Shown here in pieces: positions 305 to 36,212 of a DNA stretch of 64,000 bases. Both the position numbers and the translations under genes were made by a program. This DNA is from Flectonema sp. DT1601 (lineage: Eukaryota; Euglenozoa; Diplonemea; Diplonemida; Diplonemidae): assembly GCA_964019425.1 (NCBI GenBank), contig OZ025807.1:1-64000 (forward strand), given 5' to 3'. The notes under the pieces were generated by a model that was given only the letters and a program-made list of their open reading frames with translations, made no database searches and had not been told where the DNA came from. Position 1 is the first letter of the stretch. Each line of letters starts with the position of its first letter.

Positions 305-416
305 GCCCCAAAAGAAGAGAATTCTTCCTAAGAGGTTAGCTAAATATTCTAAGCAAGCTTAGATATTGAGACTGTACCAATAAAGTACAGAAACTGTAGC
401 TTTAGAATCGTTGGTT
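305..416 (-). ncRNA. SL RNA: Spliced leader (SL) RNA gene, first copy; repeats every 436 bp
   Basis: This donates the 5' leader exon joined to all trans-spliced mRNAs. The 39-nt exon is 378-416, read on the minus strand from 416. It begins AACCAACG, ends TTTCTGTACTTTATTG and is followed at 377 by a GT donor. The RNA-like region then folds as expected: a 6-bp stem across the splice site (CTGTAC/GTACAG, 372-390), a second hairpin (CTAAG/CTTAG), a single-stranded AATATTTAG that could be the Sm site, and a third hairpin (GAAGA/TCTTC with an outer CCTC/GGGG). A T6 run comes next. The RNA would be about 112 nt. Other copies lie at 305+436k to 416+436k for k = 1 to 61. The exon end and donor are certain; the 3' end is inferred from the T-run. 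Confidence 0.95.
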
Positions 417-12400: not shown

Positions 12401-15400
12401 AATATATTAAATAATATAAATTAAATTTTTAACATAAAAATAGGAAACACGGTGATAAGTCCCCGTTCATTTTCTTCTGCTTGGCAAACAGAGGTACGCG
12501 GGCAATAAAAAAGCCCCAAAAGAAGAGAATTCTTCCTAAGAGGTTAGCTAAATATTCTAAGCAAGCTTAGATATTGAGACTGTACCAATAAAGTACAGAA
12601 ACTGTAGCTTTAGAATCGTTGGTTAACCTTAAAAAGTAGTTACCCTAGGTTTTCAGCAACGCTGCGGCATGCAAACCTAAGAAGCACACAAAGGCCCCTG
12701 CTTGCGGGTGCCTGCAAACACCCAAAAAAAATGCCAATATGGAACCCCACCAGGAAGAGTGAGGCTCAGCCTTAACATTAACGGTAACAAGGGAGCGGCG
12801 AAAATTACGTCTTTCGGGGCGAAAAGCCAAAAGAAGAATATATTAAATAATATAAATTAAATTTTTAACATAAAAATAGGAAACACGGTGATAAGTCCCC
12901 GTTCATTTTCTTCTGCTTGGCAAACAGAGGTACGCGGGCAATAAAAAAGCCCCAAAAGAAGAGAATTCTTCCTAAGAGGTTAGCTAAATATTCTAAGCAA
13001 GCTTAGATATTGAGACTGTACCAATAAAGTACAGAAACTGTAGCTTTAGAATCGTTGGTTAACCTTAAAAAGTAGTTACCCTAGGTTTTCAGCAACGCTG
13101 CGGCATGCAAACCTAAGAAGCACACAAAGGCCCCTGCTTGCGGGTGCCTGCAAACACCCAAAAAAAATGCCAATATGGAACCCCACCAGGAAGAGTGAGG
13201 CTCAGCCTTAACATTAACGGTAACAAGGGAGCGGCGAAAATTACGTCTTTCGGGGCGAAAAGCCAAAAGAAGAATATATTAAATAATATAAATTAAATTT
13301 TTAACATAAAAATAGGAAACACGGTGATAAGTCCCCGTTCATTTTCTTCTGCTTGGCAAACAGAGGTACGCGGGCAATAAAAAAGCCCCAAAAGAAGAGA
13401 ATTCTTCCTAAGAGGTTAGCTAAATATTCTAAGCAAGCTTAGATATTGAGACTGTACCAATAAAGTACAGAAACTGTAGCTTTAGAATCGTTGGTTAACC
13501 TTAAAAAGTAGTTACCCTAGGTTTTCAGCAACGCTGCGGCATGCAAACCTAAGAAGCACACAAAGGCCCCTGCTTGCGGGTGCCTGCAAACACCCAAAAA
13601 AAATGCCAATATGGAACCCCACCAGGAAGAGTGAGGCTCAGCCTTAACATTAACGGTAACAAGGGAGCGGCGAAAATTACGTCTTTCGGGGCGAAAAGCC
13701 AAAAGAAGAATATATTAAATAATATAAATTAAATTTTTAACATAAAAATAGGAAACACGGTGATAAGTCCCCGTTCATTTTCTTCTGCTTGGCAAACAGA
13801 GGTACGCGGGCAATAAAAAAGCCCCAAAAGAAGAGAATTCTTCCTAAGAGGTTAGCTAAATATTCTAAGCAAGCTTAGATATTGAGACTGTACCAATAAA
13901 GTACAGAAACTGTAGCTTTAGAATCGTTGGTTAACCTTAAAAAGTAGTTACCCTAGGTTTTCAGCAACGCTGCGGCATGCAAACCTAAGAAGCACACAAA
14001 GGCCCCTGCTTGCGGGTGCCTGCAAACACCCAAAAAAAATGCCAATATGGAACCCCACCAGGAAGAGTGAGGCTCAGCCTTAACATTAACGGTAACAAGG
14101 GAGCGGCGAAAATTACGTCTTTCGGGGCGAAAAGCCAAAAGAAGAATATATTAAATAATATAAATTAAATTTTTAACATAAAAATAGGAAACACGGTGAT
14201 AAGTCCCCGTTCATTTTCTTCTGCTTGGCAAACAGAGGTACGCGGGCAATAAAAAAGCCCCAAAAGAAGAGAATTCTTCCTAAGAGGTTAGCTAAATATT
14301 CTAAGCAAGCTTAGATATTGAGACTGTACCAATAAAGTACAGAAACTGTAGCTTTAGAATCGTTGGTTAACCTTAAAAAGTAGTTACCCTAGGTTTTCAG
14401 CAACGCTGCGGCATGCAAACCTAAGAAGCACACAAAGGCCCCTGCTTGCGGGTGCCTGCAAACACCCAAAAAAAATGCCAATATGGAACCCCACCAGGAA
14501 GAGTGAGGCTCAGCCTTAACATTAACGGTAACAAGGGAGCGGCGAAAATTACGTCTTTCGGGGCGAAAAGCCAAAAGAAGAATATATTAAATAATATAAA
14601 TTAAATTTTTAACATAAAAATAGGAAACACGGTGATAAGTCCCCGTTCATTTTCTTCTGCTTGGCAAACAGAGGTACGCGGGCAATAAAAAAGCCCCAAA
14701 AGAAGAGAATTCTTCCTAAGAGGTTAGCTAAATATTCTAAGCAAGCTTAGATATTGAGACTGTACCAATAAAGTACAGAAACTGTAGCTTTAGAATCGTT
14801 GGTTAACCTTAAAAAGTAGTTACCCTAGGTTTTCAGCAACGCTGCGGCATGCAAACCTAAGAAGCACACAAAGGCCCCTGCTTGCGGGTGCCTGCAAACA
14901 CCCAAAAAAAATGCCAATATGGAACCCCACCAGGAAGAGTGAGGCTCAGCCTTAACATTAACGGTAACAAGGGAGCGGCGAAAATTACGTCTTTCGGGGC
15001 GAAAAGCCAAAAGAAGAATATATTAAATAATATAAATTAAATTTTTAACATAAAAATAGGAAACACGGTGATAAGTCCCCGTTCATTTTCTTCTGCTTGG
15101 CAAACAGAGGTACGCGGGCAATAAAAAAGCCCCAAAAGAAGAGAATTCTTCCTAAGAGGTTAGCTAAATATTCTAAGCAAGCTTAGATATTGAGACTGTA
15201 CCAATAAAGTACAGAAACTGTAGCTTTAGAATCGTTGGTTAACCTTAAAAAGTAGTTACCCTAGGTTTTCAGCAACGCTGCGGCATGCAAACCTAAGAAG
15301 CACACAAAGGCCCCTGCTTGCGGGTGCCTGCAAACACCCAAAAAAAATGCCAATATGGAACCCCACCAGGAAGAGTGAGGCTCAGCCTTAACATTAACGG

Positions 15401-18400
15401 TAACAAGGGAGCGGCGAAAATTACGTCTTTCGGGGCGAAAAGCCAAAAGAAGAATATATTAAATAATATAAATTAAATTTTTAACATAAAAATAGGAAAC
15501 ACGGTGATAAGTCCCCGTTCATTTTCTTCTGCTTGGCAAACAGAGGTACGCGGGCAATAAAAAAGCCCCAAAAGAAGAGAATTCTTCCTAAGAGGTTAGC
15601 TAAATATTCTAAGCAAGCTTAGATATTGAGACTGTACCAATAAAGTACAGAAACTGTAGCTTTAGAATCGTTGGTTAACCTTAAAAAGTAGTTACCCTAG
15701 GTTTTCAGCAACGCTGCGGCATGCAAACCTAAGAAGCACACAAAGGCCCCTGCTTGCGGGTGCCTGCAAACACCCAAAAAAAATGCCAATATGGAACCCC
15801 ACCAGGAAGAGTGAGGCTCAGCCTTAACATTAACGGTAACAAGGGAGCGGCGAAAATTACGTCTTTCGGGGCGAAAAGCCAAAAGAAGAATATATTAAAT
15901 AATATAAATTAAATTTTTAACATAAAAATAGGAAACACGGTGATAAGTCCCCGTTCATTTTCTTCTGCTTGGCAAACAGAGGTACGCGGGCAATAAAAAA
16001 GCCCCAAAAGAAGAGAATTCTTCCTAAGAGGTTAGCTAAATATTCTAAGCAAGCTTAGATATTGAGACTGTACCAATAAAGTACAGAAACTGTAGCTTTA
16101 GAATCGTTGGTTAACCTTAAAAAGTAGTTACCCTAGGTTTTCAGCAACGCTGCGGCATGCAAACCTAAGAAGCACACAAAGGCCCCTGCTTGCGGGTGCC
16201 TGCAAACACCCAAAAAAAATGCCAATATGGAACCCCACCAGGAAGAGTGAGGCTCAGCCTTAACATTAACGGTAACAAGGGAGCGGCGAAAATTACGTCT
16301 TTCGGGGCGAAAAGCCAAAAGAAGAATATATTAAATAATATAAATTAAATTTTTAACATAAAAATAGGAAACACGGTGATAAGTCCCCGTTCATTTTCTT
16401 CTGCTTGGCAAACAGAGGTACGCGGGCAATAAAAAAGCCCCAAAAGAAGAGAATTCTTCCTAAGAGGTTAGCTAAATATTCTAAGCAAGCTTAGATATTG
16501 AGACTGTACCAATAAAGTACAGAAACTGTAGCTTTAGAATCGTTGGTTAACCTTAAAAAGTAGTTACCCTAGGTTTTCAGCAACGCTGCGGCATGCAAAC
16601 CTAAGAAGCACACAAAGGCCCCTGCTTGCGGGTGCCTGCAAACACCCAAAAAAAATGCCAATATGGAACCCCACCAGGAAGAGTGAGGCTCAGCCTTAAC
16701 ATTAACGGTAACAAGGGAGCGGCGAAAATTACGTCTTTCGGGGCGAAAAGCCAAAAGAAGAATATATTAAATAATATAAATTAAATTTTTAACATAAAAA
16801 TAGGAAACACGGTGATAAGTCCCCGTTCATTTTCTTCTGCTTGGCAAACAGAGGTACGCGGGCAATAAAAAAGCCCCAAAAGAAGAGAATTCTTCCTAAG
16901 AGGTTAGCTAAATATTCTAAGCAAGCTTAGATATTGAGACTGTACCAATAAAGTACAGAAACTGTAGCTTTAGAATCGTTGGTTAACCTTAAAAAGTAGT
17001 TACCCTAGGTTTTCAGCAACGCTGCGGCATGCAAACCTAAGAAGCACACAAAGGCCCCTGCTTGCGGGTGCCTGCAAACACCCAAAAAAAATGCCAATAT
17101 GGAACCCCACCAGGAAGAGTGAGGCTCAGCCTTAACATTAACGGTAACAAGGGAGCGGCGAAAATTACGTCTTTCGGGGCGAAAAGCCAAAAGAAGAATA
17201 TATTAAATAATATAAATTAAATTTTTAACATAAAAATAGGAAACACGGTGATAAGTCCCCGTTCATTTTCTTCTGCTTGGCAAACAGAGGTACGCGGGCA
17301 ATAAAAAAGCCCCAAAAGAAGAGAATTCTTCCTAAGAGGTTAGCTAAATATTCTAAGCAAGCTTAGATATTGAGACTGTACCAATAAAGTACAGAAACTG
17401 TAGCTTTAGAATCGTTGGTTAACCTTAAAAAGTAGTTACCCTAGGTTTTCAGCAACGCTGCGGCATGCAAACCTAAGAAGCACACAAAGGCCCCTGCTTG
17501 CGGGTGCCTGCAAACACCCAAAAAAAATGCCAATATGGAACCCCACCAGGAAGAGTGAGGCCCAGCCTTAACATTAACGGTAACAAGGGAGCGGCGAAAA
17601 TTACGTCTTTCGGGGCGAAAAGCCAAAAGAAGAATATATTAAATAATATAAATTAAATTTTTAACATAAAAATAGGAAACACGGTGATAAGTCCCCGTTC
17701 ATTTTCTTCTGCTTGGCAAACAGAGGTACGCGGGCAATAAAAAAGCCCCAAAAGAAGAGAATTCTTCCTAAGAGGTTAGCTAAATATTCTAAGCAAGCTT
17801 AGATATTGAGACTGTACCAATAAAGTACAGAAACTGTAGCTTTAGAATCGTTGGTTAACCTTAAAAAGTAGTTACCCTAGGTTTTCAGCAACGCTGCGGC
17901 ATGCAAACCTAAGAAGCACACAAAGGCCCCTGCTTGCGGGTGCCTGCAAACACCCAAAAAAAATGCCAATATGGAACCCCACCAGGAAGAGTGAGGCTCA
18001 GCCTTAACATTAACGGTAACAAGGGAGCGGCGAAAATTACGTCTTTCGGGGCGAAAAGCCAAAAGAAGAATATATTAAATAATATAAATTAAATTTTTAA
18101 CATAAAAATAGGAAACACGGTGATAAGTCCCCGTTCATTTTCTTCTGCTTGGCAAACAGAGGTACGCGGGCAATAAAAAAGCCCCAAAAGAAGAGAATTC
18201 TTCCTAAGAGGTTAGCTAAATATTCTAAGCAAGCTTAGATATTGAGACTGTACCAATAAAGTACAGAAACTGTAGCTTTAGAATCGTTGGTTAACCTTAA
18301 AAAGTAGTTACCCTAGGTTTTCAGCAACGCTGCGGCATGCAAACCTAAGAAGCACACAAAGGCCCCTGCTTGCGGGTGCCTGCAAACACCCAAAAAAAAT

Positions 18401-21400
18401 GCCAATATGGAACCCCACCAGGAAGAGTGAGGCTCAGCCTTAACATTAACGGTAACAAGGGAGCGGCGAAAATTACGTCTTTCGGGGCGAAAAGCCAAAA
18501 GAAGAATATATTAAATAATATAAATTAAATTTTTAACATAAAAATAGGAAACACGGTGATAAGTCCCCGTTCATTTTCTTCTGCTTGGCAAACAGAGGTA
18601 CGCGGGCAATAAAAAAGCCCCAAAAGAAGAGAATTCTTCCTAAGAGGTTAGCTAAATATTCTAAGCAAGCTTAGATATTGAGACTGTACCAATAAAGTAC
18701 AGAAACTGTAGCTTTAGAATCGTTGGTTAACCTTAAAAAGTAGTTACCCTAGGTTTTCAGCAACGCTGCGGCATGCAAACCTAAGAAGCACACAAAGGCC
18801 CCTGCTTGCGGGTGCCTGCAAACACCCAAAAGAAATGCCAATATGGAACCCCACCAGGAAGAGTGAGGCCCAGCCTTAACATTAACGGTAACAAGGGAGC
18901 GGCGAAAATTACGTCTTTCGGGGCGAAAAGCCAAAAGAAGAATATATTAAATAATATAAATTAAATTTTTAACATAAAAATAGGAAACACGGTGATAAGT
19001 CCCCGTTCATTTTCTTCTGCTTGGCAAACAGAGGTACGCGGGCAATAAAAAAGCCCCAAAAGAAGAGAATTCTTCCTAAGAGGTTAGCTAAATATTCTAA
19101 GCAAGCTTAGATATTGAGACTGTACCAATAAAGTACAGAAACTGTAGCTTTAGAATCGTTGGTTAACCTTAAAAAGTAGTTACCCTAGGTTTTCAGCAAC
19201 GCTGCGGCATGCAAACCTAAGAAGCACACAAAGGCCCCTGCTTGCGGGTGCCTGCAAACACCCAAAAGAAATGCCAATATGGAACCCCACCAGGAAGAGT
19301 GAGGCCCAGCCTTAACATTAACGGTAACAAGGGAGCGGCGAAAATTACGTCTTTCGGGGCGAAAAGCCAAAAGAAGAATATATTAAATAATATAAATTAA
19401 ATTTTTAACATAAAAATAGGAAACACGGTGATAAGTCCCCGTTCATTTTCTTCTGCTTGGCAAACAGAGGTACGCGGGCAATAAAAAAGCCCCAAAAGAA
19501 GAGAATTCTTCCTAAGAGGTTAGCTAAATATTCTAAGCAAGCTTAGATATTGAGACTGTACCAATAAAGTACAGAAACTGTAGCTTTAGAATCGTTGGTT
19601 AACCTTAAAAAGTAGTTACCCTAGGTTTTCAGCAACGCTGCGGCATGCAAACCTAAGAAGCACACAAAGGCCCCTGCTTGCGGGTGCCTGCAAACACCCA
19701 AAAAAAATGCCAATATGGAACCCCACCAGGAAGAGTGAGGCTCAGCCTTAACATTAACGGTAACAAGGGAGCGGCGAAAATTACGTCTTTCGGGGCGAAA
19801 AGCCAAAAGAAGAATATATTAAATAATATAAATTAAATTTTTAACATAAAAATAGGAAACACGGTGATAAGTCCCCGTTCATTTTCTTCTGCTTGGCAAA
19901 CAGAGGTACGCGGGCAATAAAAAAGCCCCAAAAGAAGAGAATTCTTCCTAAGAGGTTAGCTAAATATTCTAAGCAAGCTTAGATATTGAGACTGTACCAA
20001 TAAAGTACAGAAACTGTAGCTTTAGAATCGTTGGTTAACCTTAAAAAGTAGTTACCCTAGGTTTTCAGCAACGCTGCGGCATGCAAACCTAAGAAGCACA
20101 CAAAGGCCCCTGCTTGCGGGTGCCTGCAAACACCCAAAAAAAATGCCAATATGGAACCCCACCAGGAAGAGTGAGGCTCAGCCTTAACATTAACGGTAAC
20201 AAGGGAGCGGCGAAAATTACGTCTTTCGGGGCGAAAAGCCAAAAGAAGAATATATTAAATAATATAAATTAAATTTTTAACATAAAAATAGGAAACACGG
20301 TGATAAGTCCCCGTTCATTTTCTTCTGCTTGGCAAACAGAGGTACGCGGGCAATAAAAAAGCCCCAAAAGAAGAGAATTCTTCCTAAGAGGTTAGCTAAA
20401 TATTCTAAGCAAGCTTAGATATTGAGACTGTACCAATAAAGTACAGAAACTGTAGCTTTAGAATCGTTGGTTAACCTTAAAAAGTAGTTACCCTAGGTTT
20501 TCAGCAACGCTGCGGCATGCAAACCTAAGAAGCACACAAAGGCCCCTGCTTGCGGGTGCCTGCAAACACCCAAAAAAAATGCCAATATGGAACCCCACCA
20601 GGAAGAGTGAGGCTCAGCCTTAACATTAACGGTAACAAGGGAGCGGCGAAAATTACGTCTTTCGGGGCGAAAAGCCAAAAGAAGAATATATTAAATAATA
20701 TAAATTAAATTTTTAACATAAAAATAGGAAACACGGTGATAAGTCCCCGTTCATTTTCTTCTGCTTGGCAAACAGAGGTACGCGGGCAATAAAAAAGCCC
20801 CAAAAGAAGAGAATTCTTCCTAAGAGGTTAGCTAAATATTCTAAGCAAGCTTAGATATTGAGACTGTACCAATAAAGTACAGAAACTGTAGCTTTAGAAT
20901 CGTTGGTTAACCTTAAAAAGTAGTTACCCTAGGTTTTCAGCAACGCTGCGGCATGCAAACCTAAGAAGCACACAAAGGCCCCTGCTTGCGGGTGCCTGCA
21001 AACACCCAAAAAAAATGCCAATATGGAACCCCACCAGGAAGAGTGAGGCTCAGCCTTAACATTAACGGTAACAAGGGAGCGGCGAAAATTACGTCTTTCG
21101 GGGCGAAAAGCCAAAAGAAGAATATATTAAATAATATAAATTAAATTTTTAACATAAAAATAGGAAACACGGTGATAAGTCCCCGTTCATTTTCTTCTGC
21201 TTGGCAAACAGAGGTACGCGGGCAATAAAAAAGCCCCAAAAGAAGAGAATTCTTCCTAAGAGGTTAGCTAAATATTCTAAGCAAGCTTAGATATTGAGAC
21301 TGTACCAATAAAGTACAGAAACTGTAGCTTTAGAATCGTTGGTTAACCTTAAAAAGTAGTTACCCTAGGTTTTCAGCAACGCTGCGGCATGCAAACCTAA

Positions 21401-24400
21401 GAAGCACACAAAGGCCCCTGCTTGCGGGTGCCTGCAAACACCCAAAAAAAATGCCAATATGGAACCCCACCAGGAAGAGTGAGGCTCAGCCTTAACATTA
21501 ACGGTAACAAGGGAGCGGCGAAAATTACGTCTTTCGGGGCGAAAAGCCAAAAGAAGAATATATTAAATAATATAAATTAAATTTTTAACATAAAAATAGG
21601 AAACACGGTGATAAGTCCCCGTTCATTTTCTTCTGCTTGGCAAACAGAGGTACGCGGGCAATAAAAAAGCCCCAAAAGAAGAGAATTCTTCCTAAGAGGT
21701 TAGCTAAATATTCTAAGCAAGCTTAGATATTGAGACTGTACCAATAAAGTACAGAAACTGTAGCTTTAGAATCGTTGGTTAACCTTAAAAAGTAGTTACC
21801 CTAGGTTTTCAGCAACGCTGCGGCATGCAAACCTAAGAAGCACACAAAGGCCCCTGCTTGCGGGTGCCTGCAAACACCCAAAAAAAATGCCAATATGGAA
21901 CCCCACCAGGAAGAGTGAGGCTCAGCCTTAACATTAACGGTAACAAGGGAGCGGCGAAAATTACGTCTTTCGGGGCGAAAAGCCAAAAGAAGAATATATT
22001 AAATAATATAAATTAAATTTTTAACATAAAAATAGGAAACACGGTGATAAGTCCCCGTTCATTTTCTTCTGCTTGGCAAACAGAGGTACGCGGGCAATAA
22101 AAAAGCCCCAAAAGAAGAGAATTCTTCCTAAGAGGTTAGCTAAATATTCTAAGCAAGCTTAGATATTGAGACTGTACCAATAAAGTACAGAAACTGTAGC
22201 TTTAGAATCGTTGGTTAACCTTAAAAAGTAGTTACCCTAGGTTTTCAGCAACGCTGCGGCATGCAAACCTAAGAAGCACACAAAGGCCCCTGCTTGCGGG
22301 TGCCTGCAAACACCCAAAAAAAATGCCAATATGGAACCCCACCAGGAAGAGTGAGGCTCAGCCTTAACATTAACGGTAACAAGGGAGCGGCGAAAATTAC
22401 GTCTTTCGGGGCGAAAAGCCAAAAGAAGAATATATTAAATAATATAAATTAAATTTTTAACATAAAAATAGGAAACACGGTGATAAGTCCCCGTTCATTT
22501 TCTTCTGCTTGGCAAACAGAGGTACGCGGGCAATAAAAAAGCCCCAAAAGAAGAGAATTCTTCCTAAGAGGTTAGCTAAATATTCTAAGCAAGCTTAGAT
22601 ATTGAGACTGTACCAATAAAGTACAGAAACTGTAGCTTTAGAATCGTTGGTTAACCTTAAAAAGTAGTTACCCTAGGTTTTCAGCAACGCTGCGGCATGC
22701 AAACCTAAGAAGCACACAAAGGCCCCTGCTTGCGGGTGCCTGCAAACACCCAAAAAAAATGCCAATATGGAACCCCACCAGGAAGAGTGAGGCTCAGCCT
22801 TAACATTAACGGTAACAAGGGAGCGGCGAAAATTACGTCTTTCGGGGCGAAAAGCCAAAAGAAGAATATATTAAATAATATAAATTAAATTTTTAACATA
22901 AAAATAGGAAACACGGTGATAAGTCCCCGTTCATTTTCTTCTGCTTGGCAAACAGAGGTACGCGGGCAATAAAAAAGCCCCAAAAGAAGAGAATTCTTCC
23001 TAAGAGGTTAGCTAAATATTCTAAGCAAGCTTAGATATTGAGACTGTACCAATAAAGTACAGAAACTGTAGCTTTAGAATCGTTGGTTAACCTTAAAAAG
23101 TAGTTACCCTAGGTTTTCAGCAACGCTGCGGCATGCAAACCTAAGAAGCACACAAAGGCCCCTGCTTGCGGGTGCCTGCAAACACCCAAAAAAAATGCCA
23201 ATATGGAACCCCACCAGGAAGAGTGAGGCTCAGCCTTAACATTAACGGTAACAAGGGAGCGGCGAAAATTACGTCTTTCGGGGCGAAAAGCCAAAAGAAG
23301 AATATATTAAATAATATAAATTAAATTTTTAACATAAAAATAGGAAACACGGTGATAAGTCCCCGTTCATTTTCTTCTGCTTGGCAAACAGAGGTACGCG
23401 GGCAATAAAAAAGCCCCAAAAGAAGAGAATTCTTCCTAAGAGGTTAGCTAAATATTCTAAGCAAGCTTAGATATTGAGACTGTACCAATAAAGTACAGAA
23501 ACTGTAGCTTTAGAATCGTTGGTTAACCTTAAAAAGTAGTTACCCTAGGTTTTCAGCAACGCTGCGGCATGCAAACCTAAGAAGCACACAAAGGCCCCTG
23601 CTTGCGGGTGCCTGCAAACACCCAAAAAAAATGCCAATATGGAACCCCACCAGGAAGAGTGAGGCTCAGCCTTAACATTAACGGTAACAAGGGAGCGGCG
23701 AAAATTACGTCTTTCGGGGCGAAAAGCCAAAAGAAGAATATATTAAATAATATAAATTAAATTTTTAACATAAAAATAGGAAACACGGTGATAAGTCCCC
23801 GTTCATTTTCTTCTGCTTGGCAAACAGAGGTACGCGGGCAATAAAAAAGCCCCAAAAGAAGAGAATTCTTCCTAAGAGGTTAGCTAAATATTCTAAGCAA
23901 GCTTAGATATTGAGACTGTACCAATAAAGTACAGAAACTGTAGCTTTAGAATCGTTGGTTAACCTTAAAAAGTAGTTACCCTAGGTTTTCAGCAACGCTG
24001 CGGCATGCAAACCTAAGAAGCACACAAAGGCCCCTGCTTGCGGGTGCCTGCAAACACCCAAAAAAAATGCCAATATGGAACCCCACCAGGAAGAGTGAGG
24101 CTCAGCCTTAACATTAACGGTAACAAGGGAGCGGCGAAAATTACGTCTTTCGGGGCGAAAAGCCAAAAGAAGAATATATTAAATAATATAAATTAAATTT
24201 TTAACATAAAAATAGGAAACACGGTGATAAGTCCCCGTTCATTTTCTTCTGCTTGGCAAACAGAGGTACGCGGGCAATAAAAAAGCCCCAAAAGAAGAGA
24301 ATTCTTCCTAAGAGGTTAGCTAAATATTCTAAGCAAGCTTAGATATTGAGACTGTACCAATAAAGTACAGAAACTGTAGCTTTAGAATCGTTGGTTAACC

Positions 24401-26900
24401 TTAAAAAGTAGTTACCCTAGGTTTTCAGCAACGCTGCGGCATGCAAACCTAAGAAGCACACAAAGGCCCCTGCTTGCGGGTGCCTGCAAACACCCAAAAA
24501 AAATGCCAATATGGAACCCCACCAGGAAGAGTGAGGCTCAGCCTTAACATTAACGGTAACAAGGGAGCGGCGAAAATTACGTCTTTCGGGGCGAAAAGCC
24601 AAAAGAAGAATATATTAAATAATATAAATTAAATTTTTAACATAAAAATAGGAAACACGGTGATAAGTCCCCGTTCATTTTCTTCTGCTTGGCAAACAGA
24701 GGTACGCGGGCAATAAAAAAGCCCCAAAAGAAGAGAATTCTTCCTAAGAGGTTAGCTAAATATTCTAAGCAAGCTTAGATATTGAGACTGTACCAATAAA
24801 GTACAGAAACTGTAGCTTTAGAATCGTTGGTTAACCTTAAAAAGTAGTTACCCTAGGTTTTCAGCAACGCTGCGGCATGCAAACCTAAGAAGCACACAAA
24901 GGCCCCTGCTTGCGGGTGCCTGCAAACACCCAAAAAAAATGCCAATATGGAACCCCACCAGGAAGAGTGAGGCTCAGCCTTAACATTAACGGTAACAAGG
25001 GAGCGGCGAAAATTACGTCTTTCGGGGCGAAAAGCCAAAAGAAGAATATATTAAATAATATAAATTAAATTTTTAACATAAAAATAGGAAACACGGTGAT
25101 AAGTCCCCGTTCATTTTCTTCTGCTTGGCAAACAGAGGTACGCGGGCAATAAAAAAGCCCCAAAAGAAGAGAATTCTTCCTAAGAGGTTAGCTAAATATT
25201 CTAAGCAAGCTTAGATATTGAGACTGTACCAATAAAGTACAGAAACTGTAGCTTTAGAATCGTTGGTTAACCTTAAAAAGTAGTTACCCTAGGTTTTCAG
25301 CAACGCTGCGGCATGCAAACCTAAGAAGCACACAAAGGCCCCTGCTTGCGGGTGCCTGCAAACACCCAAAAAAAATGCCAATATGGAACCCCACCAGGAA
25401 GAGTGAGGCTCAGCCTTAACATTAACGGTAACAAGGGAGCGGCGAAAATTACGTCTTTCGGGGCGAAAAGCCAAAAGAAGAATATATTAAATAATATAAA
25501 TTAAATTTTTAACATAAAAATAGGAAACACGGTGATAAGTCCCCGTTCATTTTCTTCTGCTTGGCAAACAGAGGTACGCGGGCAATAAAAAAGCCCCAAA
25601 AGAAGAGAATTCTTCCTAAGAGGTTAGCTAAATATTCTAAGCAAGCTTAGATATTGAGACTGTACCAATAAAGTACAGAAACTGTAGCTTTAGAATCGTT
25701 GGTTAACCTTAAAAAGTAGTTACCCTAGGTTTTCAGCAACGCTGCGGCATGCAAACCTAAGAAGCACACAAAGGCCCCTGCTTGCGGGTGCCTGCAAACA
25801 CCCAAAAAAAATGCCAATATGGAACCCCACCAGGAAGAGTGAGGCTCAGCCTTAACATTAACGGTAACAAGGGAGCGGCGAAAATTACGTCTTTCGGGGC
25901 GAAAAGCCAAAAGAAGAATATATTAAATAATATAAATTAAATTTTTAACATAAAAATAGGAAACACGGTGATAAGTCCCCGTTCATTTTCTTCTGCTTGG
26001 CAAACAGAGGTACGCGGGCAATAAAAAAGCCCCAAAAGAAGAGAATTCTTCCTAAGAGGTTAGCTAAATATTCTAAGCAAGCTTAGATATTGAGACTGTA
26101 CCAATAAAGTACAGAAACTGTAGCTTTAGAATCGTTGGTTAACCTTAAAAAGTAGTTACCCTAGGTTTTCAGCAACGCTGCGGCATGCAAACCTAAGAAG
26201 CACACAAAGGCCCCTGCTTGCGGGTGCCTGCAAACACCCAAAAAAAATGCCAATATGGAACCCCACCAGGAAGAGTGAGGCTCAGCCTTAACATTAACGG
26301 TAACAAGGGAGCGGCGAAAATTACGTCTTTCGGGGCGAAAAGCCAAAAGAAGAATATATTAAATAATATAAATTAAATTTTTAACATAAAAATAGGAAAC
26401 ACGGTGATAAGTCCCCGTTCATTTTCTTCTGCTTGGCAAACAGAGGTACGCGGGCAATAAAAAAGCCCCAAAAGAAGAGAATTCTTCCTAAGAGGTTAGC
26501 TAAATATTCTAAGCAAGCTTAGATATTGAGACTGTACCAATAAAGTACAGAAACTGTAGCTTTAGAATCGTTGGTTAACCTTAAAAAGTAGTTACCCTAG
26601 GTTTTCAGCAACGCTGCGGCATGCAAACCTAAGAAGCACACAAAGGCCCCTGCTTGCGGGTGCCTGCAAACACCCAAAAAAAATGCCAATATGGAACCCC
26701 ACCAGGAAGAGTGAGGCTCAGCCTTAACATTAACGGTAACAAGGGAGCGGCGAAAATTACGTCTTTCGGGGCGAAAAGCCAAAAGAAGAATATATTAAAT
26801 AATATAAATTAAATTTTTAACATAAAAATAGGAAACACGGTGATAAGTCCCCGTTCATTTTCTTCTGCTTGGCAAACAGAGGTACGCGGGCAATAAAAAA

Positions 26901-27012
26901 GCCCCAAAAGAAGAGAATTCTTCCTAAGAGGTTAGCTAAATATTCTAAGCAAGCTTAGATATTGAGACTGTACCAATAAAGTACAGAAACTGTAGCTTTA
27001 GAATCGTTGGTT
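26901..27012 (-). ncRNA. SL RNA: Spliced leader (SL) RNA gene, last (62nd) copy of the array
   Basis: This is the SL RNA gene nearest the array edge, with its exon at 26974-27012 and donor GT at 26972-26973. It is transcribed leftwards. Its whole upstream flank is supplied by the partial terminal unit (27033-27313), so about 300 bp of the normal 5' flank is present and the gene is probably as active as internal copies. Confidence 0.94.
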
Positions 27013-29642: not shown

Positions 29643-29649
29643 AACAATC
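29643..29649. repeat. Target-site duplication, left copy (AACAATC)
   Basis: The seven bases AACAATC directly abut the poly(T) (minus-strand poly(A)) end of the LINE. The same seven bases abut its other end at 35740-35746. Confidence 0.88.
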
Positions 29650-29675
29650 TTTTTTTTTTTTTTTTTTTTTTTTTT
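29650..29675 (-). other. Poly(A) tail of the LINE
   Basis: There are 26 consecutive T on the plus strand, i.e. A26 on the element's sense strand, directly next to the target duplication. It marks the reverse-transcribed 3' end. Confidence 0.9.
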
Positions 29676-29927
29676 GAGTGCACCACGACCCGTGAGTCTG
29701 TGATGCTGTTTGCGCTGTTAGGCGCGGCTGTTCTTTTTCTTTCTTTCTTTCTTACTTTCTTTGTTTTGGGGGTTGGGGGTGGGAATCCCGTAGGCTTCGT
29801 ATCTCCTTTCTTTGTTTTGATAACTTAAAACTAATACTACATTATTAATTGTCCACTTGGACGACTTCAGATGTGTTGCAATGATGCCTTCAATGTTGAT
29901 ATTCGAAATGTCGATGTTTTAATAATA

Positions 29928-32900
29928 CTACCGTCCTAATAGTTGTGCCAGTCTGTCTAAGGTTGTGACAAAACCAGTCATCTGCTGTTGATTCGCAGGT
30001 AAGTAGCAGTCCTCCAGTTGGCATGCTTCCTCTCCCTTGTCATTCATCATGTGACTGATGTATTTTTCTCTCAAGGTTTCTATACACCAATGTTCGCATA
30101 TAAATAATACATGATGTGCTGTCGCCTTTCCAAGTTTACAGAAAAAGCACAGCTCGTTCAGTCCTTTGATTATCAGAGATCTGCAATGTCCCACTCTAAA
30201 GCGTGACATCAGTACTTCCTCTGGTCGTGTTAGAGCTTCGATGTACGGAGGGTGTCTTACCTCTCCCGGTCCGATCCAGTTCTCCCGTTTTCTCCGCTTG
30301 TGAAACGTCATCAATGTTCCCATGTCAAGTTGAGTGGGCAGTTGTTTAATAATAACATCTTCGTGAGGTGGATCTTCCTTCAGGCCTGCAGCGAATTTCG
30401 CCAGTTGGTCCGCTACTTCGTTGTACCGCACGTTTCTGTGTGCCGGTACATACTGCATGTTGACTTGGATTCCCTTCTTCTCCAGTTTCATTGCCAACTT
30501 CCAGATCTTTTTGTTCATTGGGGACCTTTGTTTATATGGCCCTTGTTCCAATGCCTGCATGACTGACATCGAATCAGTCAACAGGTGCGTCGTTGTTGTT
30601 AGAGATTCATGTTCATCCTCCGCCACCTGAACTAAATTTTCCAACGCCAGTTTCACTGCAATCTGCTCGGTCCTATAAGAGGAACCCGCTACTGGTATTT
30701 TATATCCAAGTAGACGCATCTTGCTTTCGTTAACCATGACCACAGCGGCAGCCGCGTCTGTCATGTACGTGTTGGGTTTGTGTCTTATCGACCCGTCAGT
30801 GTAGACTTTCATCTCGTGGGCTGGTAGTTCAGTTTCTCGCTGTTCAGCCTCTTCCTTGTTACTTGAATATGTGAATCTCATCGCACTAGTACTTTCCCAT
30901 GGAGGGAGAGTGTAGTGTTCTGGGTTCACTTCCAGGTTGGTAATGCTCCGGTAATTGTCAAGGCCAGGGATACCAGAGACATAGTCTATCCAGACATTCC
31001 ATCCCCATTTCGATTTTTGAAATAATTCTGAACTCCCTGTTCTCGTCAGCTTGCGAGTCGGTAGGAACGGACTTAATTTGAAACGTTCATAGGTTCTACA
31101 CATCTTATACTGGATGTGTTCCTTCAGTCTTGGCGTGTCGGCTTCTTTGTAAAGTCTCTGTAGTTTGGTGCTCCGCAGACATCCAGTTACCAGCCTCACT
31201 GCCCTGTTTACCAGTAATTCCAGTTGTTCGAAGCACTCTTTTGGTAGCATCCAAGCAAAGCTTTCAACACCATAAAGCACCCTTGCTAACACCACCGTCA
31301 CCAGTATACTGATGAGTGTCCTCTTTCTGCAGCCTATCCTAGTGAGTCTAACCAACAAGCCTAGACCCTTGGAAGCAGCTGTCATCATCTTTTGAATTTG
31401 CGACTTAAAGGTTAACTTCTCGTCATAATGTACACCCAGGTACCGCACGGTATTCGTCTTGTGAACTTTTCGTCCAACCGCATAGGCAAATCCGTGTAAT
31501 CCGGGCCCCACTCTTTCCAGCATCTTATCTATTTCTGCCTTGTTGTGGACTTTCTTCAGTTGTGAGAAGCTGGCGCTCATCTTCATTGTTTTCAGTACCG
31601 CCGGTTTGTTCGGTAGCTTGACTTTGATCTTATGTTTTGGAACGACATACAGGTGAGTGATGGCGAATTCTTCTTTTGAAACTACAGTTGTTGAGTTATC
31701 ATCCTTCACAAGGTTACTCATTTGTTCTGCCGTGGCCACCACATATTTAAATGTGTGTTCTTCAGAGTATACTACTACTGGGGACTTGTCATGAGTTCCA
31801 CTTGGCCTCACGTGAATGTATTCCGTCTTGCCAGGGTTCTTATTGATTTTGATGTGTGAGTCAAGTGCCCACCTTTCAAATATTTTGACTGCGTTGTTAA
31901 CCTTGTTTTCTAAACAGCTGACAGTGCCCGCGGTTATTACTATTCCAACATCATCTGCAAAGACAGTCGGTTCGTACATCTCTAGTTTATCTATCAAATC
32001 GTTTATGAAGATAGAGAATAACTGGGGTCCCAGCACGCTTCCTTGTGGTACTCCTACTCGAATGTTCCGGAATGCTCCCTTCACTCCATTCACCCTTGTT
32101 GAAATCTTCCTACTAGTCAAGTAGTTTTGAACCCACCGTAGATATTTCGTTGGTAGTCCTATTTTGGACATCTTATTTAGAAGAGTTACCGGTTGAACTG
32201 CATCGAAGGCTTTTTGTAGGTCGAAGGTGATTAATATCGCTTCTTCCCCCATTGCCTTGGCACTTTTGAGTTTGTCTGTAACTATACAGAGATTTTCAAT
32301 GGAATCCCGTCCTCGTTTGTAGGCTGCTTGCCTCGGATTTATTCTGTCTTTCAACAGGTGGTGCATCCGTTCTACGACCATTCTTTCAAAGAGTTTCGAG
32401 ACGGTCGAGGTTAGTGCTATCGGTCTGTACGATAAGACTTGTTTCTTGTCTTTATCAGGTTTCAGTATGGGTATTACCATTCCACTTTTCCAGCACCTGG
32501 GTACTGCTGATCGTTGCCATGAGAGGTTGAATAGTCTTAGTAGTTGCTCGAGGAAAGCTTTTGGAAGTTGTTTTAACATCGAGTTCCAGATGTGGTCAGG
32601 TCCAGGTGCCTTCTTCTCTTTTGTTTTTGAAATTTGTCGTTCCAGTTCAGGCATTCCAAATTCCACCGAGTTATCATCAGGTATTCCTTGTAAGGTTGGT
32701 TCACCGTCTTCGAATTTGAATTGGTCTGCGTATGTTTTGGTGAAGACATCTGCCATCTCCCGCGGGTCGGTTAATTCCTTCTCACCGTCGACAATCTTAG
32801 TAATTGAATGGTCCATCATTCTACCTTCCAGTTGTTTAACTTTTCTAAAGGCCCATCGGTAGTCCATTCCAGTCATGTCGCACTCAATGATCTTCTGTTT

Positions 32901-33845
32901 GATCATGTTGATACCTCTTTCAATTGCTTCTGAGTCTGTCTTATCAGGGTCAGTCTCTGCCATTAAATCTTCCAATTCTGAATCCCTCACAGCGAAGGTA
33001 CTACTTGACTTCTTGTTGTAGCCTGGGATGGCCCTTCTCGCTGCTCTCAGAATCTCGTTGTTGATCCTATTAGCAAGTTTCTGCACATTCTTAATTCTTT
33101 CTAATTTGGGCGCTGCCCTTTCCAACAATATTTTATAATAATTCCAATCGGCACAATGCCACTTCCATTTCCATGTCCCAGAACTCTCTTTTGAATATTC
33201 ATCTGTTTTGATATCTTCGATTGTCAGTTTGAGTGGCAGGTGATCGCTGCCCCATCCCTTCATGAGTTCGATTTGTGCATCCAAAGAAATATCTAATGCA
33301 ATTACATCCGGAGAGGCTGAGCTCTGTGGTCTTGTGTGTTGTTGAGGTTTGTTTAGAATTTGAATTGCTGCTTCTAGTGACCAATCGTAGAAGCTGTTAC
33401 CAGTAATGTTCGTATTTCCATTTGACCAAGTTGAATGGTGTCCATTAATGTCACCCGCAATCAATGTGCCGGGCTCTGTTTTAAACTTCCATGTTGTTGC
33501 CTTGATTTCAGGCGGGTGGTAAACATTGTGAATTGTCAATGGCGGATTAGATTGAAGTACTACTGTTAATATCTCAGTTTGGTCATGTGAGATGTCGGGG
33601 TGTTTTAATATTATCTTATTTAAATCATTTCTGACCAGAGTGACGAGTCCTCGATGACCTGACTTGATGGTGCTGTCTCGCCTGTGGATTGCATACCCTT
33701 CAATAGCGAAGTGTTTTTCTTTAGATAACCACGTTTCCTGCAGTAGTACTACATCAGGCTTTTCTTCTTTCAGTGCCCAGTTCAATCGAAAGTAATTTTC
33801 TGGTTTCAGAACTGAGCGAATGTTATTTGACCAAATCACAATCAT
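29928..33845 (-). CDS. LINE ORF2: endonuclease / reverse transcriptase / RNase H polyprotein (1305 aa)
   Basis: This protein nicks target DNA and reverse-transcribes the element RNA. Residues 1-210 are an APE-like endonuclease with QETW at 36-39, GDINGHHS at 131-138 and SDH at 200-202. The reverse transcriptase spans about 455-820 and includes FDLQKAFDAV (541-550), GVPQGSVLGPQ (598-608) and FADD (629-632). RNase H spans about 1010-1155 with all four acidic positions visible: D1017 (YTDGS), E1060, D1091 (TDS) and D1146 (VADQLAK). A CX2C...H...C zinc knuckle lies at 1233-1250. An extra segment of about 115 residues (about 682-797) separates KTEYIHVR from VRYLGVHYDEKLTF, where related enzymes usually have a few tens of residues. 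The ATG overlaps the ORF1 stop as ATGA, suggesting termination-reinitiation. No internal stop is seen. Confidence 0.95.
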   Translation of the reverse strand: MIVIWSNNIRSVLKPENYFRLNWALKEEKPDVVLLQETWLSKEKHFAIEGYAIHRRDSTIKSGHRGLVTLVRNDLNKIILKHPDISHDQTEILTVVLQSNPPLTIHNVYHPPEIKATTWKFKTEPGTLIAGDINGHHSTWSNGNTNITGNSFYDWSLEAAIQILNKPQQHTRPQSSASPDVIALDISLDAQIELMKGWGSDHLPLKLTIEDIKTDEYSKESSGTWKWKWHCADWNYYKILLERAAPKLERIKNVQKLANRINNEILRAARRAIPGYNKKSSSTFAVRDSELEDLMAETDPDKTDSEAIERGINMIKQKIIECDMTGMDYRWAFRKVKQLEGRMMDHSITKIVDGEKELTDPREMADVFTKTYADQFKFEDGEPTLQGIPDDNSVEFGMPELERQISKTKEKKAPGPDHIWNSMLKQLPKAFLEQLLRLFNLSWQRSAVPRCWKSGMVIPILKPDKDKKQVLSYRPIALTSTVSKLFERMVVERMHHLLKDRINPRQAAYKRGRDSIENLCIVTDKLKSAKAMGEEAILITFDLQKAFDAVQPVTLLNKMSKIGLPTKYLRWVQNYLTSRKISTRVNGVKGAFRNIRVGVPQGSVLGPQLFSIFINDLIDKLEMYEPTVFADDVGIVITAGTVSCLENKVNNAVKIFERWALDSHIKINKNPGKTEYIHVRPSGTHDKSPVVVYSEEHTFKYVVATAEQMSNLVKDDNSTTVVSKEEFAITHLYVVPKHKIKVKLPNKPAVLKTMKMSASFSQLKKVHNKAEIDKMLERVGPGLHGFAYAVGRKVHKTNTVRYLGVHYDEKLTFKSQIQKMMTAASKGLGLLVRLTRIGCRKRTLISILVTVVLARVLYGVESFAWMLPKECFEQLELLVNRAVRLVTGCLRSTKLQRLYKEADTPRLKEHIQYKMCRTYERFKLSPFLPTRKLTRTGSSELFQKSKWGWNVWIDYVSGIPGLDNYRSITNLEVNPEHYTLPPWESTSAMRFTYSSNKEEAEQRETELPAHEMKVYTDGSIRHKPNTYMTDAAAAVVMVNESKMRLLGYKIPVAGSSYRTEQIAVKLALENLVQVAEDEHESLTTTTHLLTDSMSVMQALEQGPYKQRSPMNKKIWKLAMKLEKKGIQVNMQYVPAHRNVRYNEVADQLAKFAAGLKEDPPHEDVIIKQLPTQLDMGTLMTFHKRRKRENWIGPGEVRHPPYIEALTRPEEVLMSRFRVGHCRSLIIKGLNELCFFCKLGKATAHHVLFICEHWCIETLREKYISHMMNDKGEEACQLEDCYLPANQQQMTGFVTTLDRLAQLLGR

Positions 33846-35683
33846 GATTGGCCAGTGTTGTTCCTGTTGGTCGCACTTGTAGTAATCTTGTTCATACCAA
33901 GATTGTTCTCAATCCTCTTGACAGCTTCTATCAACGAAGTGATGGCTGTCGCCATGTTGTTGTTGGCTGCTTCGTTCTTTTTCGTAGTTTGCACCAGGGT
34001 TTCTACAATCCCGGTTATCTGTGCCATGCCTTCATCAAGTCGAACTTGCATGTCTTTCACTTCTTTCTGGAGACGTTCGATAGTCTCGTTCGTTTTCTCT
34101 CTCAGGCTGTTGACGTTGTTTTCCACAACCTGAACTTCGGCCGTTGGTTTCTTCGTTGTCGGGAGTGACCTCTTGACCGCGGCTGCGTACGATGTTCTAG
34201 CCTCACGGTACTTAACCACTACGGGTTTCGTTGTTTCCTTCGCCTTCACTTCTGTTTCTAACTTTTCAATGAGGATGACAATATCACCACACTGTACAAA
34301 CCTTGATTCTGGTTTCTTGTCCAGTGCGATGATAAAGTCACCTCTATCCATCCTGATAAACTTCGACTTCAGTCCTATCTCCAGTAGGATGTTCCGGAGT
34401 CTGTTGCCCCAGCTGTATGGTGCTCCACTGAGACGGTGAAGCCCTTCGCCAAACACTGTGGATGCATATTTTCCAGCACCCTTTCTCACCTTGTCAACAT
34501 CCTTCGTGTAAACCACCCTCAATCCAATCTTGCCATGTATGATGGTGAGTCCATGGCAGAGGTCATGTTGGGCTTTAAGTATGCCAACTGCCTCTTCGTT
34601 TGTTGTCTTGCGGTCCAGCCACACTGTGGTGTACTGAGTGGGTGTCTGTCCCGCCACTGATTTAATCCGGAAATAAACATTTCCTATACCGGAGTTTTTT
34701 AAAAGTGCGACAGCTGCTTCCACGTCGTTAGGGAGAACAGTGAGTTCTGCGAAGTCTTTGCCAACGTATCTGTAGGAGCGTTGATCGACTCTTCCGTGTT
34801 GTGCCACAACAACTTTGACAATTGCTGTTACAGCTGCTGGGTTTTGGACCTGTGACTTGGTCAACTCTTTAGTTGTTATCCACGCAATTAATTCGTGGGT
34901 CACAGGCGGGTTGATCTTCTTGGCGATCGTTAGAGTTGGCCGGTGGATCGTGCCAGACAGAGCAACGAACCACCAGCTTCTTATTCTTAATTGTCCATCA
35001 AATTGGACCGGCGTTTGTATCTGACTGCAGTCAGTTGCGTGTTGTAGGGCACGTTTTGGAGGTGGCCGTGTGAACACCATCGTCAGTTGCTTCGTTTTGC
35101 TGGCCTTTTCGAAGTATTGTTCGTCCAGGCTTCTTCCTTGTTGAGCCAATGAGAGTATAATTCCATTGGTCTTGCTGTTGAGGTCATCAGTTGGCTGGAG
35201 TATTTTGCAATTAAAATGCTCCTTGTTGAGTTTCGGTGGTGGTCCATTCATAATCACCGTTGATCTTCTTTGTGCCTCTTTGATTTGAGGGCTTGATTGG
35301 GGTGCCTCATTTGACGGAGGGCTTTGTTTCGTTTTTAAAAATACGCTTCCTTGTGCCTCTATGTTTTGAGGGCTTATTTGAATTGCCTCTTTGTTTTGAG
35401 GGCTTGTCTTCGTTTGAATTGCCTCCTTGTTTTGAGGGCTTGCTTGAAATGCCGCTGGAGGTCCTACTGCAATCACTTCTACTGAGATTCCTTCTGGCAC
35501 TTCTGGAGAGTCCATCTCCATTTCCTCCTGTTGCTGGGACTCTATCTCCTGCTGAGACCCCACTTCTTCTTCCCGGATCTCATTTCTGGCTTGTTCCCTC
35601 ATCATCTTCGCCTCTTTCCTTTCTCTTTCTCTCCTTTCCGCTGCCCTTCTATCTTGCGGACGCATTGCTTTCTTTCCAGCCAT
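33842..35683 (-). CDS. LINE ORF1 protein (613 aa), likely RNA-binding/assembly partner
   Basis: I place the start at the first ATG after the SL, giving MAGKKAMRPQ; the frame also runs upstream into the SL through non-ATG codons. The N-terminal 60 residues are very rich in Arg, Lys and Glu. Residues 80-145 hold several imperfect copies of SPQNKEAIQ. The middle has no domain I can name. Residues about 530-600 form heptad-like helix (NSLREKTNETIERLQKEV and following) suggesting a coiled coil, as in trimeric ORF1 proteins of other LINEs. No CCHC knuckle is visible. RNA binding and RNP assembly are inferred from position and family, not from a motif. Confidence 0.85.
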   Translation of the reverse strand: MAGKKAMRPQDRRAAERRERERKEAKMMREQARNEIREEEVGSQQEIESQQQEEMEMDSPEVPEGISVEVIAVGPPAAFQASPQNKEAIQTKTSPQNKEAIQISPQNIEAQGSVFLKTKQSPPSNEAPQSSPQIKEAQRRSTVIMNGPPPKLNKEHFNCKILQPTDDLNSKTNGIILSLAQQGRSLDEQYFEKASKTKQLTMVFTRPPPKRALQHATDCSQIQTPVQFDGQLRIRSWWFVALSGTIHRPTLTIAKKINPPVTHELIAWITTKELTKSQVQNPAAVTAIVKVVVAQHGRVDQRSYRYVGKDFAELTVLPNDVEAAVALLKNSGIGNVYFRIKSVAGQTPTQYTTVWLDRKTTNEEAVGILKAQHDLCHGLTIIHGKIGLRVVYTKDVDKVRKGAGKYASTVFGEGLHRLSGAPYSWGNRLRNILLEIGLKSKFIRMDRGDFIIALDKKPESRFVQCGDIVILIEKLETEVKAKETTKPVVVKYREARTSYAAAVKRSLPTTKKPTAEVQVVENNVNSLREKTNETIERLQKEVKDMQVRLDEGMAQITGIVETLVQTTKKNEAANNNMATAITSLIEAVKRIENNLGMNKITTSATNRNNTGQS

Positions 35684-35701
35684 TTTAAATTTTATTAACA
35701 G

Positions 35702-35739
35702 CAATAAAGTACAGAAACTGTAGCTTTAGAATCGTTGGT
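35702..35739 (-). other. Integrated spliced leader exon at the LINE 5' end (SL relic)
   Basis: Read on the minus strand from 35739, this matches nucleotides 2-39 of the array's SL exon without a mismatch and stops exactly at the exon end (TTTATTG). The next bases are CTGTTAATAAA, not the SL RNA intron. The junction is therefore that of a trans-spliced mRNA, not of an SL RNA gene. Only the first A is absent, which fits reverse transcription stopping at the modified cap-proximal nucleotide. Confidence 0.95.
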
Positions 35740-35746
35740 AACAATC
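35740..35746. repeat. Target-site duplication, right copy (AACAATC)
   Basis: The seven bases AACAATC directly follow the SL-derived 5' end of the LINE and are identical to 29643-29649. Finding the repeat exactly at both ends fixes the insertion boundaries. Confidence 0.88.
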
Positions 35747-35770
35747 AATCCTAGGGCTGTACTGTGACCA

Positions 35771-35799
35771 AAACAGAAAAAGGTCGGACCCGTTCAGAC
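35771..35799. repeat. 29-bp direct repeat, right copy
   Basis: This is the partner of the copy at 29351-29379. Here the core is followed by GGGT, giving a small hairpin (ACCCG/CGGGT) that is absent from the left copy. It may be a fragment of a dispersed repeat. Confidence 0.6.
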
Positions 35800-35857
35800 G
35801 GGTTTACCCGAAATGCGTTACAAACAAAAAGTAAAAGGTATACCTCAGAAGATTTCT

Positions 35858-35965
35858 TCAACAAGTCAAGTACTTGTTTTTATCCTGCTTCAGTTCCTCT
35901 AAGTCCTTGTTGTACTTGTCGTAATCTTCCTTCTGGATTTTTTCTTCAGGTGTTAGGACGGTGTT
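35858..35965 (-). other. Short charged open frame, possible terminal exon or gene remnant
   Basis: On the minus strand a 35-codon open stretch encodes LTPEEKIQKEDYDKYNKDL and a Lys/Glu-rich continuation, ending TC-stop. The composition looks coding, with a faint resemblance to the second half of an HMG box, but there is no ATG and no partner exon I can find. It sits directly upstream of the LINE insertion. The rest of 35747-36140 is A-rich and holds nothing else I recognise. Confidence 0.25.
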
Positions 35966-36140: not shown

Positions 36141-36212
36141 GACCGTGTGGCTCAATGGAAGAGCGCCTGACTACGGATCAGGCGGTTGCAGGTTCGAGTC
36201 CTGCCACGGTTG
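36141..36212 (+). tRNA. trnR(acg): tRNA-Arg (anticodon ACG)
   Basis: The 72-nt sequence folds as a complete cloverleaf: acceptor GACCGTG/CACGGTT (with a G-U at the first pair), D arm GCTC/GAGC, anticodon arm CCTGA/TCAGG with loop CTACGGA, 5-nt variable loop, and T arm GCAGG-TTCGAGT-CCTGC. The anticodon ACG reads CGU, and CGC/CGA if A34 is edited to inosine. No intron is present. It is on the opposite strand to every protein gene here and lies 21 bp beyond the stop of the WD40 gene. Confidence 0.96.

Follow-up and report, generated by a model that had tools for sequence, protein, structure and literature searches.

The stretch of DNA described here, which we call the window, comprises 64,000 nucleotides (nt) of contig OZ025807.1 of the diplonemid Flectonema sp. 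DT1601. On its minus strand it contains a long interspersed nuclear element (LINE) whose 5' end is a copy of the host spliced leader (SL) exon, followed by a short leader, two open reading frames (ORFs), a 3' untranslated region and a tail of 26 A residues (A26). The original prediction, made from the letters of the window, held that the SL is part of the inserted element and that the template was a trans-spliced mRNA; we examined both the locus and the rest of the genome in this light. The element, the duplications that bound it and the nearby SL RNA genes are as follows:

29650..35739, minus strand: LINE, 6,090 bp with SL and tail included
35740..35746, no strand: 5'-side target-site duplication AACAATC, present as one copy in the empty paralogs L002 and L003
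35702..35739, minus strand: SL exon, nts 2-39, identical to the exons of the window array and to those of L113 and L114
35684..35701, minus strand: 18-nt leader CTGTTAATAAAATTTAAA between SL and ORF1
33842..35683, minus strand: ORF1, 613 amino acids, no Pfam family above cut-off
29928..33845, minus strand: ORF2, 1305 amino acids, with APE-type endonuclease, reverse transcriptase (RT) and RNase H
29676..29927, minus strand: 3' untranslated region, from the ORF2 stop to the A-tail
29650..29675, minus strand: A26 tail
29643..29649, no strand: 3'-side target-site duplication AACAATC, a perfect 7-bp match to the 5'-side copy
378..27012, minus strand: host SL RNA gene array outside the LINE, 62 units with a 436-bp period, used as comparison set

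ORF2 matches the Pfam families PF14529, PF03372, PF00078 and PF00075, and its start overlaps the ORF1 stop in the letters ATGA. Positions 35702-35739, read on the minus strand, give ACCAACGATTCTAAAGCTACAGTTTCTGTACTTTATTG, which is nts 2-39 of the 39-nt SL exon (AACCAACG...TTATTG); all 62 units of the window array contain this exon. A 32-nt SL pattern, allowing up to 3 mismatches, returned 63 matches in the window, namely the 62 array units and the LINE copy, and none in 100 shuffles, which excludes a chance match at the LINE. After the exon, every array unit continues with GTACAGTCTCAA (62 of 62), but the LINE with CTGTTAATAAAATTTAAAATGG. The leader of the LINE therefore follows the SL without any SL intron, and the predicted terminus and its exact join at the trans-splice junction are both borne out to the letter.

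The flanks of the LINE, joined in silico, match two other loci, L002 (C10) and L003 (C42), across the join, with 95% identity over 299 bp and a few small gaps away from the join; the join point in both reads AGAAACAATCAATCC. Judged by these matches, L002 and L003 are empty paralogs of the target, and because they span the join, the insert comprises all 6,090 bp, the SL being part of it. The A26 tail and the perfect duplication at both ends were likewise confirmed, and together with the empty sites and the intronless SL join they support the claim that the template was a mature, trans-spliced and polyadenylated LINE mRNA. The insertion does lie away from the SL array, as had been said, but the array ends just 2.6 kb from the 3' end of the LINE.

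Genome-wide, the 5' start motif of the family (up to 2 mismatches) occurs at 57 places and the 3' end motif at 142, with no control match for either. Tabulating what precedes the 57 starts gave a divided answer: eight begin with the SL, at its nt 1, 2 or 4, whereas 46 begin without it at an A-run directly before T(T)AAAATGG, the run being 7-16 A long in 37 of these 46 (range 3-47). Three starts were placed in neither class: C46:556362, whose 5' flank sequence was not in the sample, and C17:717335 and C46:592461, where a long A-run directly before ATGG falls outside the classification rule. The view of the SL as the family-wide maker of 5' ends is thus partly right, and the stronger claim, that trans-splicing defines the 5' end of the LINE, is unsupported as it was stated. 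No conserved non-SL element region lies upstream of the SL in any of the eight SL copies and no SL intron follows it (0/8 for each), these being the two arrangements that the original prediction had named as telling against it.

Duplications were counted in the 35 of 57 copies with both ends covered (22 without both ends, L045 among them, were omitted); in 19 of 35 the duplication measures at least 4 bp, compared with a mean of 1.6 and a maximum of 5 such copies in 500 shuffles, and in 15 of 35 at least 5 bp (mean 0.7, maximum 4). In a tree of 46 of the 57 copies the SL copies are spread over about six subclades, and an SL-less copy is closest or equally close to each of the eight; the nearest relative of the window LINE is the SL-less C73:12982, at 0.57%. 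Four of the SL copies are preceded directly by the 3' end and A-tail of another LINE copy, and the other four by other DNA.

The piece between the SL and the element start is different in all eight SL copies, and two such pieces were traced to genomic flank DNA, in which they sit directly after an AG; the leader is consequently not a fixed part of the element, as it had been taken to be. One of these two leaders is that of L040 (C3:496661, plus strand), in which the SL is joined to GAGAGGTAAGACACCC. This 16-mer occurs at 75 genomic places, one of which falls within the ORF2 of the window LINE, at 30250-30265; further occurrences keep the same distance from the 3' end motif (e.g., C10:1517657 and C10:1518197). 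One copy of the family, the SL-less L045 (C7:917387, minus strand), is inserted in a 5'-truncated LINE that starts at GAGAGGTAAGACACCC. The 5' flank of L045 reads ...TTTTAGCCAG and then GAGAGGTAAGACACCC, and its 3' flank, CACCCTCCGTAC..., resumes the same truncated LINE with CACCC repeated; the truncated LINE has CAGG after its own tail, matching the CAGG at its start. Because this LINE runs on both sides of L045, GAGAGGTAAGACACCC is target DNA there. L040 and L045 were compared over 1551 nt, a further 500 nt of ORF2 and a 53-nt run at the 3' end that includes A's of the tail. They are identical at 1551/1551 nt from the leader on and at 500/500 nt of ORF2, and have 1 nt in common upstream of the leader, while the next closest copies to the pair differ by 0.21% over 1,400 nt. 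We place L045 as parent and L040 as daughter because the leader is explained by its surroundings at L045 only.

The second traced leader is that of L036 (C34:546338, minus strand). It reads TTGCATCCCCTCCTGTCTGTCC, a sequence with one other genomic place (up to 1 mismatch), at C6:993423-993444 upstream of a tRNA-Phe gene and immediately behind CACTTAG; the match extends beyond the leader by a single nt on either side. A genome search allowing up to 2 mismatches found no 5' start of the LINE at this site, so that the parent of L036 is either missing from the assembly or lost; a short LINE 3' piece (122 bp, 80%) lies about 47 bp beyond the leader source. By analogy with these two cases, the 18-nt leader of the window LINE most likely begins with transduced flank DNA of its parent copy.

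Three SL copies, L010, L031 and L036, carry a second SL piece: their SL is followed by TTTCTGTACTTTATTG, which is the SL cut after its internal CTACAG. This pattern occurs at 8 genomic places (control 0), the remaining 5 being in other sequences. The three copies were accordingly spliced twice, and a double SL would be the expected outcome when the transcript of an SL-headed copy is spliced at the relic it carries. Repeated rounds have also been described for dinoflagellate retrogenes, in the available text of PMC12014239.

Taken together, these results make it very probable, in our view, that the window LINE, a full-length APE-type element, arose by retrotransposition of a trans-spliced, polyadenylated read-through LINE mRNA, with 5' transduction of flank DNA. 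A parent copy elsewhere would have been transcribed from DNA upstream of it, and the spliceosome would have joined the SL to an AG just upstream of that parent, an arrangement visible in the source DNA of two other copies and extended here to the window copy. The RNA would then have been polyadenylated, reverse transcribed as far as SL nt 2 and inserted with the 7-bp duplication, all of which has left its trace at the locus; priming of reverse transcription at the target is presumed from what is general among LINEs. The new copy would consist of SL, a short piece of parental flank and ORF1 onwards, and such a copy could be spliced a second time, at the AG within the SL relic, and transpose anew, as the DNA of three copies shows. 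The A-run 5' ends may reflect transcription from a second start point; alternatively, the reverse transcriptase may tend to stop, or to jump template, at the A-run. The SL relic is direct evidence of the RNA template, and lets descent be traced within a LINE family.

Several observations weigh against this interpretation. Most copies (46/57) have no SL at the start, and a duplication of at least 4 bp was found in just 2 of the 7 SL copies with both ends covered (C28 and C25:136437); L040 itself lacks a clear one. The window leader, searched genome-wide with up to 2 mismatches, matches itself alone, and its parent copy was not found. Source loci were traced for 2 of 8 SL copies, the genome-wide leader search having taken in only some of them: leaders other than those of the window, L040 and L036 were compared by eye with other 5' flanks only. 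Another proposed pair failed. L023 was considered as the parent of L010, whose leader GGGTTTTCCC fits, but the two belong to different subclades, with a tree distance of about 3%; L023 does not figure among the nearest relatives of L010, and their common GGTTTTCCCAAAAAA occurs at 134 genomic places (control 2). Moreover, we infer trans-splicing, the transcription start and translation from DNA.

The alternative that deserves most attention accepts SL capture as real but treats it as incidental: the main template would be an SL-less transcript starting at the A-run, through an internal promoter or processing, and the SL copies would be a side product of read-through. The prevalence of A-run starts, with 7-16 A in 37 of 46, speaks for it, as do the duplications in 17 of 28 A-run copies with both ends covered. 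So does the ratio of 142 3' ends to 57 starts, for random 5' truncation would be unlikely to leave 46 starts at one short end point. Against it stand the three SL copies that went through at least two rounds of splicing and transposition, and the identity of L040 and L045 over the 2,051 nt compared; from these same facts we conclude that SL-bearing RNAs yield full-length, still-productive copies. We give this alternative a real chance, somewhat short of even.

The remaining explanations are far weaker. Since array and LINE share a strand and are separated by 2.6 kb, the SL could have come from the array by recombination or gene conversion; yet the join contains neither intron nor upstream SL gene sequence, the duplication directly abuts SL nt 2, empty paralogs exist, and 7 more SL copies with other leaders are on other contigs, so that we regard such an origin as most improbable. 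Eight copies carry the SL-like 38 bp at the 5' end, which might suggest that it belongs to the element's 5' untranslated region by inheritance, but this is scarcely credible given the SL-less copies among the closest relatives of every one of them and the SL-to-ORF1 piece that differs in 8/8, and it is contradicted by the L045/L040 pair. Repeats are prone to misassembly, a concern that the 2018 Schistosoma paper raised for its own cases in its available text (PMC5832876); here, a chimera of SL RNA sequence and LINE would have to account for a perfect duplication, empty paralogs, joins at splice sites and many loci on different contigs, and we hold it to be very unlikely indeed. We retain retrotransposition of a trans-spliced read-through mRNA as the most probable explanation of the window LINE.

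The final 26 nt of the SL exon served as a further search pattern, with any letter but G allowed next, G being what follows the exon in SL RNA genes. There are 79 such places in the genome (control 0), of which 6 belong to the window LINE family and 73 do not; the SL copies L040 and L065 fall outside this search because G follows their SL. The corresponding search for SL plus G gave 632 places, nearly all SL RNA genes among the first 100 listed, and since those 100 are the ones considered, SL relics before G are undercounted. Analysis of the 73 covered 57 stretches with 59 places (14 places were left out), and BLAST placed 48 stretches in seven multi-copy groups and 9 as single or odd, the grouping being loose for six: L135, L139, L140 and L173 are about 66-82% alike to their group, and L162 and L175 share 49 nt only. 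One long stretch was read in each of five groups, and three contain RT: L155 (RT and OTU) and L156 and L158 (endonuclease, RT and RNase H). Pfam gave no match in the other two of the five. L157 and L159 had been guessed by eye to be DIRS-like, but Pfam found no match in them. The SL-headed build is therefore not peculiar to the window LINE.

Three of these groups (22 of 57 stretches) have tandem units at the 5' end. The units, seen in L115, L126, L129, L131, L137, L139, L142, L146, L148 and L150, are about 234, 288 and 462 bp long, each ending in a splice acceptor, and the SL stands outermost. All 10 of the 10 stretches examined have the SL join at a position whose counterpart in the next unit comes right after a pyrimidine-rich run and AG, and in one group two neighbouring AGs are used by different copies. 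The AG at these joins is independent evidence for addition of the SL by trans-splicing, against recombination. RT was looked for in one of the three groups, and found (L155). We think it likely that SL trans-splicing is a general maker of retrotransposon 5' ends in this genome, the window family having no acceptor of its own and riding on read-through transcripts, and other groups having evolved tandem acceptor units. On this view each SL round would stamp a copy of the window family with the SL and a piece of parental flank, which would make a heritable lineage record. An acceptor at the end of each unit would, if so, allow a fresh SL join after every round, and such built-in acceptors suggest retrotransposon adaptation to trans-splicing. 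Where transcription is polycistronic and mRNAs are trans-spliced, a retrotransposon must obtain a complete mRNA with a cap and yet not rely on its own promoter; the SL joins, transduced flanks, parent-daughter pair and double SLs in this DNA record one answer.

Parts of this picture have precedents. Like the window LINE, the relict DinoSL retrogenes of dinoflagellates derive from reverse-transcribed mRNA and retain an SL relic at the 5' end, and they show signs of repeated rounds of splicing and retroposition, according to the available text of PMC12014239 and PMC8045281; unlike those cases, in which the moved mRNA is described as a host gene's, a LINE mRNA with its own RT is involved here, and in one case flank DNA of an identified parent copy was carried along. 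The window LINE has the marks of such an SL-tagged retrocopy, namely an SL join without intron and an A-tail with duplication; the acceptor AG at the source is seen for two sister copies and not for the window copy. For flatworms, the idea that retrotransposon transcripts received an SL and then integrated has already been stated in the available portions of PMC12582326 and PMC5832876, the latter (Schistosoma, 2018) reporting six SL exons merged to transposable elements. Those loci belong to another phylum with another SL, and a parent-daughter pair, a source flank, a double SL and an acceptor borne by the element are all absent from the same portions.

Among euglenozoan elements, the trypanosomatid non-LTR retrotransposons ingi and L1Tc have the same combination of APE endonuclease, RT and RNase H that Pfam finds in the window LINE (PMC12278014, available text). 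L1Tc differs in its 5' promoter and ribozyme sequence (Pr77) and its unspliced transcripts, as far as the accessible part of PMC8190864 describes them; an Rfam search over 35201-35900 of the window found no ribozyme, one weak match below cut-off being to an unrelated family, and Pr77 itself was not part of that comparison. SLACS, CZAR and CRE are also euglenozoan LINEs linked to the SL, but their insertion sites are within SL RNA genes and their endonuclease is restriction-like (PMC12278014, same text). The window LINE sits in another repeat and not at that fixed site, 0 of 62 array units have an insert at the exon-intron junction, and no restriction-like endonuclease was found in the window LINE, where Pfam gives an APE-type endonuclease with RNase H as the only other nuclease; the predicted contrast with SLACS and CZAR is thus supported. 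The available text of the Diplonema papillatum genome paper lists LINE-1- and SLACS-like gene models and does not mention SL at LINE ends. In the literature as available, largely outside subscription journals, we found no report of a parent-daughter pair with transduced flank, nor of tandem acceptor units. Mammalian L1 elements carry upstream flank DNA into new copies by 5' transduction; in the window family, the transduced piece starts at a trans-splice acceptor, with the SL before it.

We also note several observations on the family and its host. In L036, L067 and C18:1230212, LINE copies stand head to tail, with the SL or A-run directly after the preceding A-tail; template jumping between RNAs is a possible cause. 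Among the 46 A-run copies, eight have a 13-nt SL 3' end upstream (C7:27269, C11:1498238, C11:1513468, C25:142682, C25:468922, C25:475383, C25:481864 and C54:525644), and these were not counted as SL copies. At C54:525644 the duplication GGTGAGAC makes the partial SL target DNA, which is proven for that copy and not for the other seven. Four of the eight have an upstream repeat in common, and the three at C25:468922-481864 are near-identical.

The euglenozoan SL with which we compared the window exon is presumably from Diplonema. The window exon is 2 letters off that sequence as given in the available text of PMC3795323. SL arrays on C16 and C20 have units of mostly 623 and 610 bp, with a 5S rRNA gene in each single unit read from them, whereas Rfam finds no 5S rRNA in the window array, whose 62 units are of exactly 436 bp. 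At L132, L145 and L168, the SL together with SL RNA gene upstream sequence (TTTTTAAGGTTAACCAACG) is joined straight to an element or gene body, without intron; such joins may be recombinants, or they may represent retroelements driven by the promoter of an SL RNA gene.

The window LINE has a tRNA gene close to its 5' end, about 400 bp away and divergent to it:

36141..36212, plus strand: tRNA-Arg(ACG)

In 12 of 47 LINE copies with sufficient upstream sequence, the 5' flank has a tRNA gene less than 200 nt upstream (L012, L014, L018, L020, L026, L027, L034, L037, L042, L045, L047 and L065), and all 18 tRNA hits within 1.4 kb upstream of LINE copies are divergent to the LINE. A preference for insertion upstream of tRNA genes is likely from these counts; some Dictyostelium elements prefer such DNA. 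Finally, L156 and L158 have GIEQNPGP and GDIHPNPGP near the start of the ORF2 frame, motifs that resemble 2A peptides, and at L128, L141 and L147 the SL stands directly before what appear by eye to be host protein-coding frames, which are possible SL-tagged retrogenes.
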